Source: a virus. From it: a stretch of DNA of 35,245 bases. Each line of letters starts with the position of its first letter. The first letter of the stretch is position 1. The stretch is taken from IMG/VR virus record IMGVR_UViG_3300037882_003236, positions 1 through 35,245 of that record; one strand, given 5' to 3'. The position numbers and the translations under genes are program-made. This document shows positions 1-35,245 of this stretch, in pieces. Below the pieces are notes generated by a model. The model had not been told where the DNA came from. It was given only the letters and a program-made list of their open reading frames with translations, and did no database searches.

Positions 1-99
1 CAATCATAGAATCAAAGCGTCTTATTGATTCCTCATCATCTTTCATTGCTGTTGAAAGATGAGAAATTTCTTGACTCAAATCTTCATAAGTTGAGTTTA
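1..99. repeat. Terminal direct repeat (left copy), assembly join
   Basis: These 99 bases are identical to positions 35147-35245 at the other end. Exact end-to-end identity of this length is what a de Bruijn assembler leaves when a circular or terminally redundant genome is closed, so the non-redundant genome is 35,146 bp. A gene reads through the join without interruption, which supports true circularity of the map. It could instead be a genuine short terminal repeat of virion DNA; the sequence alone cannot separate the two. Confidence 0.95.
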
Positions 100-873: not shown

Positions 874-1149
874 TCATCCTTCTCCATAGCCATCGCCATA
901 GCCAGAGCCATTTCCATAGCCATCGCCATCGCCATCGCCATCGCCATAGCCATCGCCATAGCCATAGCCATCGCCAGAGCCATTTCCATCGCCATCGCCA
1001 TCGCCATCGCCATCGCCATAGCCATCGCCATAGCCATCGCCATAGCCATAGCCATCGCCAGAGCCATAGCCATCGCCATAGCCATCGCCATAGCCATAGC
1101 CATAGCCATAGCCATTTCCAGAGCCATAGCCAGAATTTATTTCTTCCAT
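874..1149 (-). CDS. Glycine-rich GDG/GYG/GSG repeat protein (91 aa), copy 1
   Basis: The frame begins MEEINSGYGSGNGYGYG and is then an almost perfect alternation of Gly with Asp, Tyr, Ser or Asn, ending GYGDGYGEG. I chose this frame over the two other open frames (poly Met-Ala and Ala-Ile) because an ideal ribosome binding site, AAAGGAG with seven bases to ATG, precedes exactly this start. There is no signal peptide and no globular domain. A homologous protein lies at 10390-10644 on the opposite strand, and the C-terminal portions share GDGYGNGSGY. The repeat unit is six bases, so copy-number change keeps the frame and would only alter length. The function is unknown; low-complexity Gly/Tyr/Asp proteins may be structural, adhesive or metal-binding, which is inference. 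Confidence 0.6.
   Translation of the reverse strand: MEEINSGYGSGNGYGYGYGYGDGYGDGYGSGDGYGYGDGYGDGYGDGDGDGDGDGNGSGDGYGYGDGYGDGDGDGDGYGNGSGYGDGYGEG
883..1133. repeat. Hexanucleotide repeat array (GCCATC/GCCATA), array 1
   Basis: About 250 bp of imperfect tandem hexamers, mainly GCCATC and GCCATA with interspersed GCCAGA and TTTCCA variants. On the minus strand this reads GGC followed by GAT, TAT, TCT or AAT codons. A 39-base exact stretch (897-935) recurs in reverse complement at 10592-10630 inside array 2, so the arrays are inverted repeats about 9.6 kb apart. Confidence 0.9.
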
Positions 1150-1865: not shown

Positions 1866-2642
1866 TTATTTTCGTATTGCTAATATTCCTCTATCTTCAA
1901 TATCGTTATCATCATTCTCCTCGAAAAACGTATCAATATACGGCTTTCCTGTATCCACTCGTACCCTGTGTTTTCCTCTTCTCCATTCACATTCTTCTTT
2001 ACTCTTAGTAATGTAGTGATTTAACTTCAATATATCTGATGTCCAGCCACAGTCCTGCGGATATATTCTCCCCTCTTTGTGTTGTTTGCATCGCTGAAAA
2101 AAATGTTCATCAATCACGAATCCTCTTACACAAAACGAGTGCGGGGTTATCATAAAATTGCAGTCCTGCATTCTCACAATGCTTTTCACCTTCCGCAATA
2201 TTCGACGTCGATGAGTAAATCTTTCACGAACAGGTTCAGGTGAATAAGTAAGATGTCCCGACGATCCAAAATTCAGCCAACACGCCACAACCGCCGACAC
2301 TCTCCTATCATCATACCGCCGTTCAACAATTACCCTCAACGTTCCAACTGCATAGAGAAATTCATCCACATCAATAAACACGCACCAACACGTGTCTTTC
2401 CTGTGATTTTTTATACAGTGATCATACGCAGCTTATTGTTTTCTTAAACCTGGTATTTTGTAATAGGTAACTAAACCTGATTCTCGGTACGGTAGAAGAA
2501 CTCGACTCGTATTATCAGTCGAATCATTGTTGTACAAATAAAAATGCTCAAAGCCCTGGGCGATGTGGTGGTCAAGCCACTCTTTGATGTACAAGCCCTC
2601 GTTTTGTACGATGGCGCAGATGGATAGGTAGTTTATCATCAC
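1866..2642 (-). pseudogene. GT92/Glyco_tranf_2_4-like glycosyltransferase interrupted by one in-frame TAA
   Basis: One reading frame spans 258 codons from ATG 2642 (AGGA upstream) to TAA 1866, with a single internal TAA at 2433-2435. The N-terminal part reads LSICAIVQNEGLYIKEWLDH and HFYLYNNDSTDNT, the nucleotide-sugar binding start of family-92 / Glyco_tranf_2_4 enzymes. After the stop the same frame continues AAYDHCIKNH...WCVFIDVDEFL, where DVD is the metal-binding DxD motif. Length and order match one enzyme, and nothing is shifted or deleted. The downstream half has no start signal of its own beyond a GTG. It is a recent nonsense mutation, a readthrough gene, or an assembly error; the enzyme would transfer a sugar to an unknown acceptor. 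Confidence 0.75.
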
Positions 2643-2721: not shown

Positions 2722-3111
2722 TCAAAACAAATAACTCCCCGTTTCTTTTAATCTCAGCTTGTAGCTGCTGCCCAAAATTGTTGCGATATCCGCTGATAAC
2801 TCTACAAATACTTGGTCATCGTTGAGTGAGGTGGTTATTTCTATATTATTCACACCTTGCATGTTTTGTAGCTCTGTTAAGAAGTAAATTCGTTCGTGAA
2901 TATTCTCATGTTCAATAGGCGTGCTTTCATTCGATACGTACTGCCCTGCTACAAGCTCAGGTGTTCGCTCTAGGTGTTGTGTCCCTTCTCTTATTATTTG
3001 TGTGAATTCTAGGTAATTGTTTAAGACTGTTCCAACGTCGAACAAAAGCACGAACAACAGAAAGAAAACTGGTAATACAAAAGATGCTTCTATACTGATA
3101 GAACCTTTCAT
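2722..3111 (-). CDS. TadE-like pseudopilin
   Basis: A 129-residue protein whose ATG at 3111 has GAGG five bases upstream; a longer upstream frame lacks such a site. The N-terminus MKGSISIEASFVLPVFFLLF continues VLLFDVGTVLNNYLEFTQIIREG. This matches the TadE/TadG pseudopilin pattern: a short basic leader ending in Gly3, Glu at +5 of the predicted mature protein, a conserved Pro, one transmembrane helix (about residues 10-30), then an ..REGTQ helix. The remaining ~90 residues are polar and probably periplasmic. TadE proteins are processed by prepilin peptidase and take part in Tad (Flp) pilus biogenesis. A lone copy in a phage suggests acquisition from a host and possible interference with host pili (inference). 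After the TGA, other frames remain open for a short basic stretch. Confidence 0.75.
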   Translation of the reverse strand: MKGSISIEASFVLPVFFLLFVLLFDVGTVLNNYLEFTQIIREGTQHLERTPELVAGQYVSNESTPIEHENIHERIYFLTELQNMQGVNNIEITTSLNDDQVFVELSADIATILGSSYKLRLKETGSYLF

Positions 3112-3272
3112 AAAAACCTCAAAAAAAAGGGAAGAGGGAAAGATAAAAAACCTTAACTTATCTTTCCCTATGAAGCATGTGTTGGTGAGAAGAATGAGCC
3201 AGGGGAAACGGTTGGTATTCACGTTTACCACAATGGGCATAGAAAGCCCTGACTCATTCTCCATCCAATCGG
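3112..3272. other. Intergenic region with two hairpins (terminator-like) before the pseudopilin gene
   Basis: A perfect 12-bp inverted repeat (AGGGAAAGATAA 3135-3146 / 3158-3169, 11-base loop) is followed on the minus strand by CTTCCC and eight T residues, resembling an AU-rich intrinsic terminator or attenuator just upstream of the gene at 3111. A second, wider stem pairs 3191-3204 with 3247-3260 (13 of 14 positions, one G-U). Its arm AATGAGCCAGGGGA (3193-3206) recurs exactly at 3612-3625. Confidence 0.6.
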
Positions 3273-3545: not shown

Positions 3546-3579
3546 AATAAAAACCTTTCGCGCAATAAAGCGCATGAAA

Positions 3580-3596: not shown

Positions 3597-3626
3597 AAAG
3601 GGCATTACCATAATGAGCCAGGGGAT

Positions 3627-4104: not shown

Positions 4105-5601
4105 TTAATAAATATATTTATCTTGTTTGTTTCTTGTTTCCTTCCATATTAAATCCATGGTTACTTGCTCAAGTCCTTTGATATTATCCCGTTCTTTTGG
4201 TGTACTTGTCCAAGGCCGAGACATTAGACCGTATCGAAATGAATCGTAGGGGTGGTCTTCCATATGGTCTAAGATATCCTCTGGTTTTTTAGGATCGTGT
4301 TGTAGAACTGGTAATGTTCTAATTAAGTTCACGCAGGTATTAAAAATTAGTACGCCCGCTCCGCGCTCATCTCCGACTAGTCTTGACCTAACTTGCGAAT
4401 GACCGTTGATTCTGTCAATGACCGCATGGTGAAAAACTATCTTGCTACGTACTTTCTTCTCGAAATCAATAAACTCCATATCCTCGGCTATAGACGGGCC
4501 GCCTTTTTTAATCCATATATCGTGTCCCGAAACACGGTAACTGATTTTTGGTTCTAAAGCCTCTCTCTCGACAATTCCTCTAGCAATTTCGTGATTAGGT
4601 AGTTTCAGTCCTTTGTTTGGCTCTCCTGTAAACCCGTACCATTCTCGGTAAACAACGATAGTTCCGCGAGGGATGACATGTTGTTTATGTTTCCCGTCTT
4701 CATCAATATCTACACCGTCTGAAATGGCGTACCAGAGGACACAAAAGGGGTCTGAACTTCCCCAGTCAAAGGAACAAAATCTTGTCCAGTGCTTTGGTAT
4801 AGGGAAGGGTTGAATAACGTGTTTTGCATAACTATACTCAGGAAAAAATGCTCCCGCGATAATTCCCCAATCGCCATCCCTGTAGGCACGTACTAAAGCG
4901 GCCGAACCTAAACCAGATAACCGATGTTCATAGTATGGGTCATCCTCTAGCAGGGAAGGATTATCATCTAGCCTGGCGGGAATAAATTGACGAGTCATTC
5001 CGCCTTCTGAGTTTGGTGTTTGCCAGATTTCTAAAGGAATATGCCCATCGACCCAGGAGGATTTTACCCAAGCATGACCGACATTGCCAGGGTTTGAGCC
5101 ACAGAGAATTCGTGGGAAATAGTTCTCATATTCAGGTGGGATATTTAATCCGACGCAGCGGACGCGAGAGCGTAGAAAGCGGTACGTATCGGAATCGAAT
5201 GTTGTTAGCTCATCGATAAGGAGTACATGGATTTCAGAGGAGAGATACTTGTAAACGTCCTTAGCATCCTGACAGTGGCAGAGGTATATTTTAGAACCAT
5301 TAGCGAATCGTATTTCTTCTTGAGTGATAAAAACTTGTTTTACTTGAACAAGTGGGGCGAGAAGTGCTCTGAATCCTTTTGGCCCGTCAAGATGCGTTTT
5401 TAGAAGGTCAGGGAGGAGACGACGAAATAGATAAACGTGAAGGCCGCCAACAGACAAGCACCAGCTGAGCGCAGCCACACGCATGAGATAAGATTTACCG
5501 CCTCCTGCCGCACCACCGTAAAGAATTTCATTTGCATTGCTTTGAAGAGCCTGCGCCTGTGGTGGGTGCAGAGTTATTGGAATTATTGGCCGTTGATTCA
5601 T
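4105..5601 (-). CDS. terL: Terminase large subunit
   Basis: A 498-residue packaging motor. The ATPase domain shows Walker A GGAAGGGKS at residues 29-37, a Walker B hydrophobic run ending in DE near 130-131 (LLIDE) and a GSNPG segment near 168-172. The C-terminal RNase H-like nuclease starts with FDWGSSDPF near 278-286, whose Asp is the first metal ligand. The length is typical for TerL. With the portal it translocates DNA into the prohead and cuts concatemers. It is encoded on the strand opposite to the portal and capsid genes, which is uncommon, and follows a probable small subunit gene 20 bases upstream. Confidence 0.95.
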   Translation of the reverse strand: MNQRPIIPITLHPPQAQALQSNANEILYGGAAGGGKSYLMRVAALSWCLSVGGLHVYLFRRLLPDLLKTHLDGPKGFRALLAPLVQVKQVFITQEEIRFANGSKIYLCHCQDAKDVYKYLSSEIHVLLIDELTTFDSDTYRFLRSRVRCVGLNIPPEYENYFPRILCGSNPGNVGHAWVKSSWVDGHIPLEIWQTPNSEGGMTRQFIPARLDDNPSLLEDDPYYEHRLSGLGSAALVRAYRDGDWGIIAGAFFPEYSYAKHVIQPFPIPKHWTRFCSFDWGSSDPFCVLWYAISDGVDIDEDGKHKQHVIPRGTIVVYREWYGFTGEPNKGLKLPNHEIARGIVEREALEPKISYRVSGHDIWIKKGGPSIAEDMEFIDFEKKVRSKIVFHHAVIDRINGHSQVRSRLVGDERGAGVLIFNTCVNLIRTLPVLQHDPKKPEDILDHMEDHPYDSFRYGLMSRPWTSTPKERDNIKGLEQVTMDLIWKETRNKQDKYIY

Positions 5602-10393: not shown

Positions 10394-10644
10394 TACATGA
10401 TGGCGATGGCAATGGCTCTAGCTCTAGCTCTAGCTCTAGCGATGGCTATGGCTCTGGCGATGGCGATGGCTATGGCTCTGGCGATGGCGATGGAAATGGC
10501 TCTGGCGATGGCTATGGCGATGGCGCTGGAAATGGCGATGGCTATGGCTATGGAAATGGCTCTGGCTATGGCTATGGCTATGGCGATGGCTATGGCGATG
10601 GCGATGGCTATGGAAATGGCTCTGGCTATGCCTATGTGATTTAG
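10390..10644 (+). CDS. Glycine-rich GDG/GYG/GSG repeat protein (84 aa), copy 2
   Basis: ATG at 10390 has AAGGA six bases upstream, fixing the frame as MIHDGDGNGSSSSSSSSDGY followed by Gly alternating with Asp, Tyr, Ser and Asn. An octaserine run, coded by AGCTCT hexamers, is specific to this copy. The C-terminal GDGYGNGSGY is shared with the protein at 874-1149. No signal peptide, Cys or hydrophobic core is present, so it is likely extended or disordered. It lies just before the portal gene, separated by a strong hairpin. The six-base unit keeps the frame when copy number changes. It may be a minor structural, adhesive or metal-binding protein; this is inference. Confidence 0.6.
   Translation: MIHDGDGNGSSSSSSSSDGYGSGDGDGYGSGDGDGNGSGDGYGDGAGNGDGYGYGNGSGYGYGYGDGYGDGDGYGNGSGYAYVI
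10395..10634. repeat. Hexanucleotide repeat array (GATGGC/TATGGC), array 2
   Basis: About 240 bp of tandem hexamers on the plus strand, mostly GATGGC, TATGGC and TCTGGC, with an AGCTCT block at 10420-10440. It is an inverted homologue of array 1; 10592-10630 is the exact reverse complement of 897-935. Confidence 0.9.
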
Positions 10645-13773: not shown

Positions 13774-14973
13774 ATGAAGTTTATATTTTATTCGAATGTT
13801 GCTTTTGAAGAATGGGATTGGAGAAATTCAGTAGAAAAAGGAATTGGCGGCTCCGAGACATCACATGTCGAAATGAGCTGGAGACTAGCGGCAAGAGGCC
13901 ACGAAGTTATTACTTATGCACCCATACCGAGTGACTGTCCTGGCAAATGGAGAGATACCATTTGGAAAAGATGCGAGGAAGTAGACTGGAGTCAAAAAGG
14001 TATTTGGATTCTCTATCGTTGCCCTGAGGCAATAGATAATTTCCCCGTAGAAAGAGACGAACAAACTCTTTGGTTCATGATGCAGGATTGGGATTATCTT
14101 TCTTGGAATGAAGAGAGAAAAGCAAAACTAGATTTAGTTATTACCCTTTGCCAAGCTCATGGCCGAGATGTCATAGGAAAACATCCAGACCTCAAAGATA
14201 AGCTATGGTTATCGAGTAACGGCGTTAAGGTTGATCTCATTAAGAAAATAGAAGGGGAATATCTAAAGAATGGTGGCTTCCCTAAAAGAAATCCGCATAA
14301 AATTATATACGCTTCATCGCCAGACCGAGGCTTGAAGCATGTTGTTAAGTCTTTCAGTCGGGCTAGAGAATATATTCCAACGTTAGAGCTTCATGCATTC
14401 TATGGGTTCGATAATCTCGATAAGATCGACGCACCTTGGGCAAAAAAGACAGCAAAAGAGACGAGAAAATTACTCGAATCACCAGGAGTTGTCTGGCATG
14501 GGCGAGCTACACAAGAAGACTTGTACAAAGAATGGTTATCCGCCGGACTTTGGGTTTATCAAACGAATTTCTCAGAAACTTCGTGCATTACTTGCATGGA
14601 AGCGCAAGCCCTCGGAGCAATTCCAATCTACAACCCAATTTATGCACTACGGGAAAACGTGCGAAGTGGAATACCTGTTGAGGGAGATGCTTACGGAGAT
14701 CCGCTTACTCAGGCGAGATTCTCAGCGGAAATAGTTAGGCTGGCTACCTATCCTGATCTTCAGGAGGAAATTAGAATTCCAATGATGAGAGAAGCCAGAA
14801 AACGTTTTGATTGGGAGAATTTCGTTACACAGTGGGAGAATAAAGCAGCTGGTAAATATTATCCATTGGATTTTCCAGTACAATTACCTGGTGTACAGCA
14901 AGAAATCGAGGATGAGTTGAAAGAAGACGAAGAGCTCTACCAACCAGAAGAAGGGCAGCAAATTTCAATATAA
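13774..14973 (+). CDS. GT4-like glycosyltransferase (GT-B fold)
   Basis: A 399-residue enzyme. The N-terminal domain shows GIGGSETSHVEMSWRLAARGH (from residue 23), the glycine-rich acceptor-side loop of family 4 enzymes. The C-terminal domain has IIYASSPDRGLKHVV (about 177-191) and the EX7E signature E268...E276 followed by ALGAIPIYNP, which contacts the nucleotide sugar. An acidic tail (QEIEDELKEDEELYQPEEGQ) is added. It would transfer a sugar to an unknown acceptor, retaining anomeric configuration by family rule. Lying between portal-cluster and virion genes, it may decorate phage structural proteins or host polysaccharide; this is inference. Confidence 0.85.
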   Translation: MKFIFYSNVAFEEWDWRNSVEKGIGGSETSHVEMSWRLAARGHEVITYAPIPSDCPGKWRDTIWKRCEEVDWSQKGIWILYRCPEAIDNFPVERDEQTLWFMMQDWDYLSWNEERKAKLDLVITLCQAHGRDVIGKHPDLKDKLWLSSNGVKVDLIKKIEGEYLKNGGFPKRNPHKIIYASSPDRGLKHVVKSFSRAREYIPTLELHAFYGFDNLDKIDAPWAKKTAKETRKLLESPGVVWHGRATQEDLYKEWLSAGLWVYQTNFSETSCITCMEAQALGAIPIYNPIYALRENVRSGIPVEGDAYGDPLTQARFSAEIVRLATYPDLQEEIRIPMMREARKRFDWENFVTQWENKAAGKYYPLDFPVQLPGVQQEIEDELKEDEELYQPEEGQQISI

Positions 14974-14983
14974 GGTAGTAATT

Positions 14984-15736
14984 ATGCTTCACGGTAAACA
15001 TCCAATAGGAACAGTGGGTATCATGTGCGGATTACCTGCTGTGCCTGAGTATTTCTTGTGGTCGTACTCGCAAATGGTTCAGTATAATTCTGAATATTTA
15101 GTAAGACCAAATGAATTCATTCATTACAATAAGACAGCCATATCCTACCATTCCTCAGCAAGAAACGGTCTTGTATCAACTATGCTCGGTGAGTGGTTGT
15201 TGATGCTAGACACAGATCATCAATTCGACCCTGACATTTTGGCTAGGATGCTGAAGGTTTTGCAAGATAATCCTGACGTTGATGTCCTCTCAGCGCTTTA
15301 TTTGCACCGTGGTGCACCTCATATGCCTGTTTTATATCAGTGGAGTGACAAAGGTTTAGTAAGAGTTGCTGACTGGATGAGACACGAAAAGCCTTATTTA
15401 TTGCCTATGGGCTCATCTGGAGCTGGTTGTTTATTGATGCGTAGATCTGCACTAAAGAAAGTGATTGATCATTTCAAGTGCGAACCGTTTGATATTATTC
15501 ACCCATACGGTGAAGATCATAGTTTCATGAAAAGATGTTTTGAGTTAGAGCTAGGTTTATTTTGCGCTCCATTTATTCAATGTCATCATGTCACACCGAG
15601 AGCATTGGTATGGCCTGATGATCATGATGAAGAGGCCTCAACTAAATTCGAGCCAATAGTTTTTGGTGAAGAAAACAAAGACAAGTGGGTAGTCTTAGAA
15701 GATAAACAATCAGAGGTGCATGTAAATGGCAACTAA
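14984..15736 (+). CDS. GT2-like glycosyltransferase (GT-A fold)
   Basis: A 250-residue enzyme following the GT4-like gene by ten bases. GEWLLMLDTDHQFDPDILAR (from residue 69) holds the DTD metal-binding DxD motif at 76-78; GSSGAGCLLMRRSAL and YGEDHSFMKRC are later family-2-type segments around the acceptor and the catalytic Asp/Glu. The first 60 residues (GTVGIMCGLPAVPEYFLWSY, HYNKTAISYHSSARNGLV) resemble phage and capsule GT2 enzymes. It is soluble with no membrane helix. It probably works with the preceding enzyme to build a short glycan; acceptor and sugar are unknown. Confidence 0.8.
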   Translation: MLHGKHPIGTVGIMCGLPAVPEYFLWSYSQMVQYNSEYLVRPNEFIHYNKTAISYHSSARNGLVSTMLGEWLLMLDTDHQFDPDILARMLKVLQDNPDVDVLSALYLHRGAPHMPVLYQWSDKGLVRVADWMRHEKPYLLPMGSSGAGCLLMRRSALKKVIDHFKCEPFDIIHPYGEDHSFMKRCFELELGLFCAPFIQCHHVTPRALVWPDDHDEEASTKFEPIVFGEENKDKWVVLEDKQSEVHVNGN

Positions 15737-35117: not shown

Positions 35118-35245
35118 AAAGTCATTTATATATTTCTTAAGAAACCCAATCATAGAATCAAAGCGTCTTATTGATTCCTCATCATCTTTCATTGCTGTTG
35201 AAAGATGAGAAATTTCTTGACTCAAATCTTCATAAGTTGAGTTTA
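35115..35245 (-). CDS. 3' part of the join-spanning coiled-coil gene
   Basis: This is the same gene as at 1-163. The segment 35115-35146 is its true 3' end (GFLKKYINDF then TAG), and 35147-35245 is the redundant copy of 1-99. Read on the circle it is one intact 64-residue frame. Confidence 0.7.
   Translation of the reverse strand, partial: NSTYEDLSQEISHLSTAMKDDEESIRRFDSMIGFLKKYINDF
35147..35245. repeat. Terminal direct repeat (right copy)
   Basis: Identical to positions 1-99; it should be counted once in the genome. Confidence 0.95.

Follow-up and report, generated by a model that had tools for sequence, protein, structure and literature searches.

A lone TadE-domain gene beside the packaging genes of a complete phage genome as candidate minor-pseudopilin cargo

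Tad pili contain TadE as a minor pilin, and the prepilin peptidase of their assembly machine is TadV; prepilin leaders vary in length, end in Gly or Ala and are often followed by Glu at +5 (review, PMC10191384). Tad pili serve as receptors for some phages, such as Caulobacter phiCb5 (PMC11067988), and phages are known to disable type IV pili and so exclude rivals, for example through PilB (PMC11436027). We analyzed the window, that is the whole 35,245-nucleotide stretch of IMG/VR record IMGVR_UViG_3300037882_003236, in which a sequence-only reading had pointed to a lone, phage-encoded TadE-like pseudopilin that could enter or poison the host Tad machine.

The TadE-like protein

The open reading frame, start codon, motif and coordinates given in the sequence-only reading were all exact against the list of open reading frames and the translation, and the good ribosome site that it had noted is the GAGG at 3120-3117, 5 nt before the ATG (Table 1). 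An alternative longer frame of 180 aa opens at 3264; we favor the ATG at 3111, which is preceded by the ribosome site, whereas the N-terminal part of the longer form would be encoded across the upstream hairpin. The 129-aa translation begins MKGSISIEASFVLPVFFLLFVLLFDVGTVLNNYLEFTQIIREGTQHLERT..., and can be written MKG|SISIEASFVLPVFFLLFVLLFDVG... with the predicted cut after Gly3, which puts Gly3 at -1 and Glu8 at +5. Pro14 and a single long hydrophobic helix, with the hydrophobic stretch running from residue 9 to about residue 30, precede the sequence IIREGTQ. The protein thereby conforms to the definition of a prepilin motif as a small residue (Gly/Ala) at -1, often Glu at +5, and then 20-25 hydrophobic residues (PMC10191384); it carries, in other terms, a type III (prepilin) signal.

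A profile search with PF07811 (Pfam TadE) matched residues 3-43 at 30.6 bits (E 3.8e-7), above the curated cut-off (gathering score) of 22.9 bits, in agreement with the identity proposed earlier, and at the low end of the range of 22.6-62.5 bits found among TadEs. As a chance control, the protein was scored with an HMM built in this analysis from 36 cellular TadEs, giving 16.4 bits as against 9.4 bits for the best of 2000 shuffles of its own sequence. Because the PF07811 cut-off and the shuffle control are both exceeded, the TadE domain is genuine though divergent, and the gene product is very probably a TadE-domain protein. Profile support is confined to the N-terminal 44 residues: nothing in the C-terminal 85 residues matches a profile, and the one similarity in the C-terminal half is a weak full-length BLAST match to a cellular TadE. 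PHROGs, NCBIfam, PDB sequences and PADLOC gave no match to the protein, and a defense or anti-defense identity was dropped in view of the PADLOC result.

Structure prediction, which the sequence-only reading had suggested as a check, bore out the long N-terminal helix as the best-confidence part of the protein in both models and gave the C-terminal half no confident fold in either. In TadE proteins a periplasmic alpha/beta domain follows the long helix; the single-sequence model shows, at low confidence, a helix plus three strands, an arrangement that is missing from the 5-sequence model. These findings bear on the alternative that the TadE-like stretch is a mere signal anchor for a protein with some other job in the phage, in lysis timing, the virion or the envelope, and with no link to pili. 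Such a protein could well have a C-terminal part of 85 residues lacking both profile match and confident fold, and its gene could well sit in the packaging block downstream of the gene for the terminase large subunit (TerL); however, the curated TadE cut-off is passed, which goes beyond mere hydrophobicity, and the weak full-length match extends into the C-terminal half of a genuine TadE. We consider this alternative very unlikely.

Members of the TadE family typically have a hydrophilic, charged leader. Here it comprises three residues (MKG), whereas the shortest among the 36 cellular TadEs has six residues including the Gly, with cellular starts taken at the nearest upstream ATG, a choice that favors short leaders. 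Because of this difference, processing of the phage protein by a prepilin peptidase would be possible but not assured, and must be called doubtful.

Table 1. Coordinates of features in the window and of TadE/TadG gene pairs in other phage sequences.
Feature	Positions	Strand	Description
Terminal direct repeat	1..99 = 35147-35245		Exact, 99 bp; circular or complete assembly
Inverted repeat, left arm	891..1127		237 nt, 84% identical to right arm; CCATAG-type hexanucleotide units
GT92/GT2-like glycosyltransferase gene	1866..2642	-	Directly downstream of tadE-like gene; in-frame TAA 2433-2435
tadE-like gene	2722..3111	-	129 aa, stop codon within coordinates; ORF and translation, PF07811 match
TadE domain	2983..3105	-	Residues 3-43; prepilin-type G|SISIE motif, transmembrane helix, IIREGTQ
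Shine-Dalgarno GAGG	3117..3120	-	5 nt upstream of ATG; sequence
Stable hairpin and tail	3121..3169	-	Stem 3169-3157 / 3147-3135, then CTTCCC, T8; non-canonical, terminator-like
TerL gene	4105..5601	-	Upstream of tadE-like gene, same strand; PHROGs phrog_979, phrog_2
Inverted repeat, right arm	10400..10636		Pairs with 891..1127
Musica TadE and TadG-like genes	L214 3950-5549		
Momento TadE and TadG-like genes	L215 3950-4712		
TadG-like gene (with DUF7305) and TadE-like gene	L223 4733-6405		Within replication gene region

Genome setting and expression

Identical sequence ends are the usual sign of a complete, circularized assembly, and the window is an end-to-end, complete phage genome; contamination or host flank is ruled out by the exact terminal repeat together with the phage gene set, which comprises TerL, a portal (phrog_12082), a major capsid protein (phrog_9953) and a lytic transglycosylase-type tail protein (PHROGs). 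The phage location claimed for the gene is thereby established. At 30-34%, the portal resembles its counterparts in Bradyrhizobium phage ppBjS10J-1 and Myxococcus phage Mx8. Most relatives of the capsid protein come from Proteobacteria; Nitrosovibrio sp. Nv6 and an IMG/VR record hold the closest ones, at 68%. The phage is podovirus-like, and its host is probably a proteobacterium. A profile scan of the record returned the tadE-like gene as the sole PF07811 match, and no other Tad gene (ATPase, platform, secretin, Flp or peptidase) was matched among the window proteins scanned, so that the description "lone" holds as far as examined.

Directly downstream lies a glycosyltransferase gene that is interrupted by an in-frame stop, which probably reflects either true breakage of the gene or an error in sequencing. 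Two more glycosyltransferase-like genes are found at 13774-15736, between the portal and capsid genes. The intergenic DNA of the window also holds two identical copies of AATGAGCCAGGGGA (3193-3206 and 3612-3625), with a similar 20-nt pair at 3577 and 3844.

Upstream of the gene, folding identifies a hairpin with a 13-bp stem (-19.1 kcal/mol, z -3.43), the T8 starting 6 nt past the stem and the GAGG following directly after the T8. Of the terminator-like hairpin with T8 that had been read from the sequence, the hairpin is thus real, but the T8 stands off the stem and the structure is not listed by a terminator consensus scan. If it terminates, the tadE-like gene would be expressed by read-through only; an mRNA structure close to the ribosome site is an equally good explanation of the hairpin. 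The earlier suggestion of a separately controlled accessory gene finds no backing, since a consensus scan detected no promoter-like site between the hairpin and the ATG.

The minus-strand block with the tadE-like gene and TerL is bracketed by the two arms of the 237-nt inverted repeat. TerL lies directly upstream of the portal gene on the same strand in nine of nine related loci having both genes, as against the opposite strand and a distance of 5 kb in the window. An inversion, natural or assembly-made, is a possible explanation of this arrangement; reversing the block again would put the tadE-like gene between TerL and the portal gene, in the late direction.

Distribution of TadE in viral and cellular genomes

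Among 49 related viral records, many of them fragments, no TadE match was found even at E 1. This absence places the gene outside the core of the phage group, and on its distribution it appears to be lineage-specific cargo. Close homologues of the protein were likewise absent from viral and cellular contig collections, and tblastn searches of phages and plasmids gave chance-level matches or nothing. One cellular match was obtained by tblastn in 399 sampled Pseudomonadota genomes (28%, residues 2-111, E 2.3e-5), with no additional match in two further proteobacterial samples of 369 genomes each, the three samples being overlapping draws. The matched cellular TadE belongs to a full tad locus, which also has a second TadE as well as frames resembling secretin, TadA, TadB/C and TadG, the gene names other than TadE and TadG resting on a reading of the translations. 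TadE is present in 11 of the 19 genomes that hold related phage capsid genes, and in 23 of 185 genomes of one class.

A TadE from a Methylococcaceae assembly matches genes of the Burkholderia cenocepacia phages Musica, Milagro and Momento (Peduoviridae) at 39-41%; the TadE genes of these phages are annotated "hypothetical protein". In Musica the TadE scores 59.4 bits, with a TadG-like protein of 402 aa (PF13400, Tad_C), also annotated as hypothetical, encoded after it; the annotated TadE start lies within the domain, and with a start at an upstream ATG the leader would be normal. The TadG-like gene of Momento is cut short ahead of transposase genes. There is no BLAST-level similarity between the Burkholderia phage TadE and the window protein, and a Musica-type TadE used as query gave no match in viral contigs. 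A profile-type scan, in turn, returned five IMG/VR contigs with a TadE domain above the cut-off, one also with TadG. On L223 a TadG gene and then a TadE gene stand beside genes for a phage-type DNA polymerase and a single-stranded DNA-binding protein (SSB), and L221 and L224 have terminase matches; the weakest of the five cases is L222, whose TadE frame shares its position with a frame on the antisense strand. The terminase frame of L224 (G641:C1:30253-31374) holds two TAG and one TAA codons, possibly reflecting a decayed gene, introns or an altered code. Neither the TadE of L225 nor the TadG of L223 matched isolated phages, and no PHROGs family corresponded to the phage-borne TadE genes scanned. 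The scans for phage-borne TadE are pattern-limited and their counts are lower bounds; phage-borne TadE is not unique to this phage. The homologue search proposed by the sequence-only reading thus yielded nothing close to the window protein, together with TadE genes in other phages. Its remark that no characterized phage protein of this kind is known holds for the open full-text literature searched, in which no title or abstract describes a phage-encoded TadE; the kind of gene itself, however, also occurs in other phages.

The main rival to a role in the Tad machine is that the gene is a passenger, a host-captured TadE that is now functionless, is being lost and is expressed by read-through only. 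Viral relatives without a homologue, a broken adjoining glycosyltransferase gene, the low-end PF07811 score, and a hairpin with no promoter-like site ahead of the start are all consistent with it. Phage genomes, however, lose useless DNA and would be expected to shed such a gene; the frame is unbroken and has a good ribosome site, the divergence from every TadE found points to a long stay in the phage or to a donor that is poorly covered by sampling, and TadE recurs in unrelated phages. We regard a passenger as unlikely.

A second rival is cargo of the lysogenic-conversion type, in which a minor pilin is supplied or swapped and the host pilus is changed rather than blocked, perhaps together with the adjacent glycosyltransferase. 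Temperate Burkholderia phages carry TadE with a TadG-like gene, and the tadE-like gene lies near glycan-type genes in the window and, by our reading of the loci, in L221 and L224, both of which would suit this alternative. Glycan genes are common phage cargo in any case, though, the glycosyltransferase gene of the window is broken, and the scan of window genes recognized neither an integrase nor a repressor, and we hold this alternative to be distinctly unlikely.

Proposed role and comparison with known systems

Our preferred reading, held tentatively and at somewhat less than an even chance, is that the gene product is a cargo minor pseudopilin that acts in the host Tad machine, altering or blocking it. 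The phage would have acquired a TadE-type minor pseudopilin as cargo adjoining its packaging genes; the protein would insert into the inner membrane N-in, may or may not be processed by the host prepilin peptidase TadV, and would enter the host complex for Tad pilus assembly, where it would be one minor pilin too many or a mismatched one. Assembly of the Tad pilus would then be changed or blocked, and adhesion or Tad-dependent phage entry altered. Because the leader is very short, an unprocessed form that poisons the complex is also conceivable; judged from sequence, the net effect could be either inhibition or substitution. A PF07811 score above the cut-off, a cellular match within a tad locus and the occurrence of TadE in 11 of the 19 genomes with related phage capsid genes argue for this reading. 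Against it count the MKG leader, the C-terminal half without fold or profile support, the absence from the related viral records, the hairpin directly upstream and the lack of a promoter-like site. The recurrence of TadE in phages, with TadG in Musica and beside replication genes on an IMG/VR contig, favors a Tad-related role over chance capture.

As a broader and speculative proposal, which we consider somewhat unlikely, tailed phages may repeatedly and independently recruit TadE, in some cases along with TadG, and use these subunits as decoys or replacements to remodel or jam the host Tad pilus from within its assembly complex, an uncatalogued counter-receptor class working by subunit mimicry and not by ATPase inhibition. 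Should phages indeed bring Tad subunits along in order to alter the pilus as a receptor, this would amount to superinfection control by subunit mimicry. With no PHROGs family for the genes tested and with "hypothetical" annotations in isolated phages, such a class is easily overlooked.

Phage proteins that disable type IV pili (D3112 gp05, DMS3 Aqs1 and the Pf4 proteins) are among the closest described systems: they are likewise phage-encoded, act on a type IV filament machine and exclude other phages (PMC11436027). D3112 gp05 and Aqs1 differ in that they inactivate the PilB ATPase, and the passages on these proteins in that source describe no pilin homologue. Compared with a Tad (type IVc) pilus locus, the window lacks neighboring ATPase, platform, secretin, Flp and peptidase genes among the proteins scanned. 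With the TadE family (PF07811; Tad/Flp, type IVc pili) the phage protein shares the G|xxxxE motif, a helix with Pro, the REG motif and its size, and it differs from that family in its phage encoding, the missing further tad genes, the three-residue leader and weak C-terminal similarity. Musica, Milagro and Momento resemble the window in carrying a TadE-domain protein in a tailed phage genome, and differ in that theirs is a classic TadE (59 bits), with a TadG-like gene next to it in Musica and Momento; those Burkholderia phages in which TadE and a TadG-like gene occur together represent an available test system.
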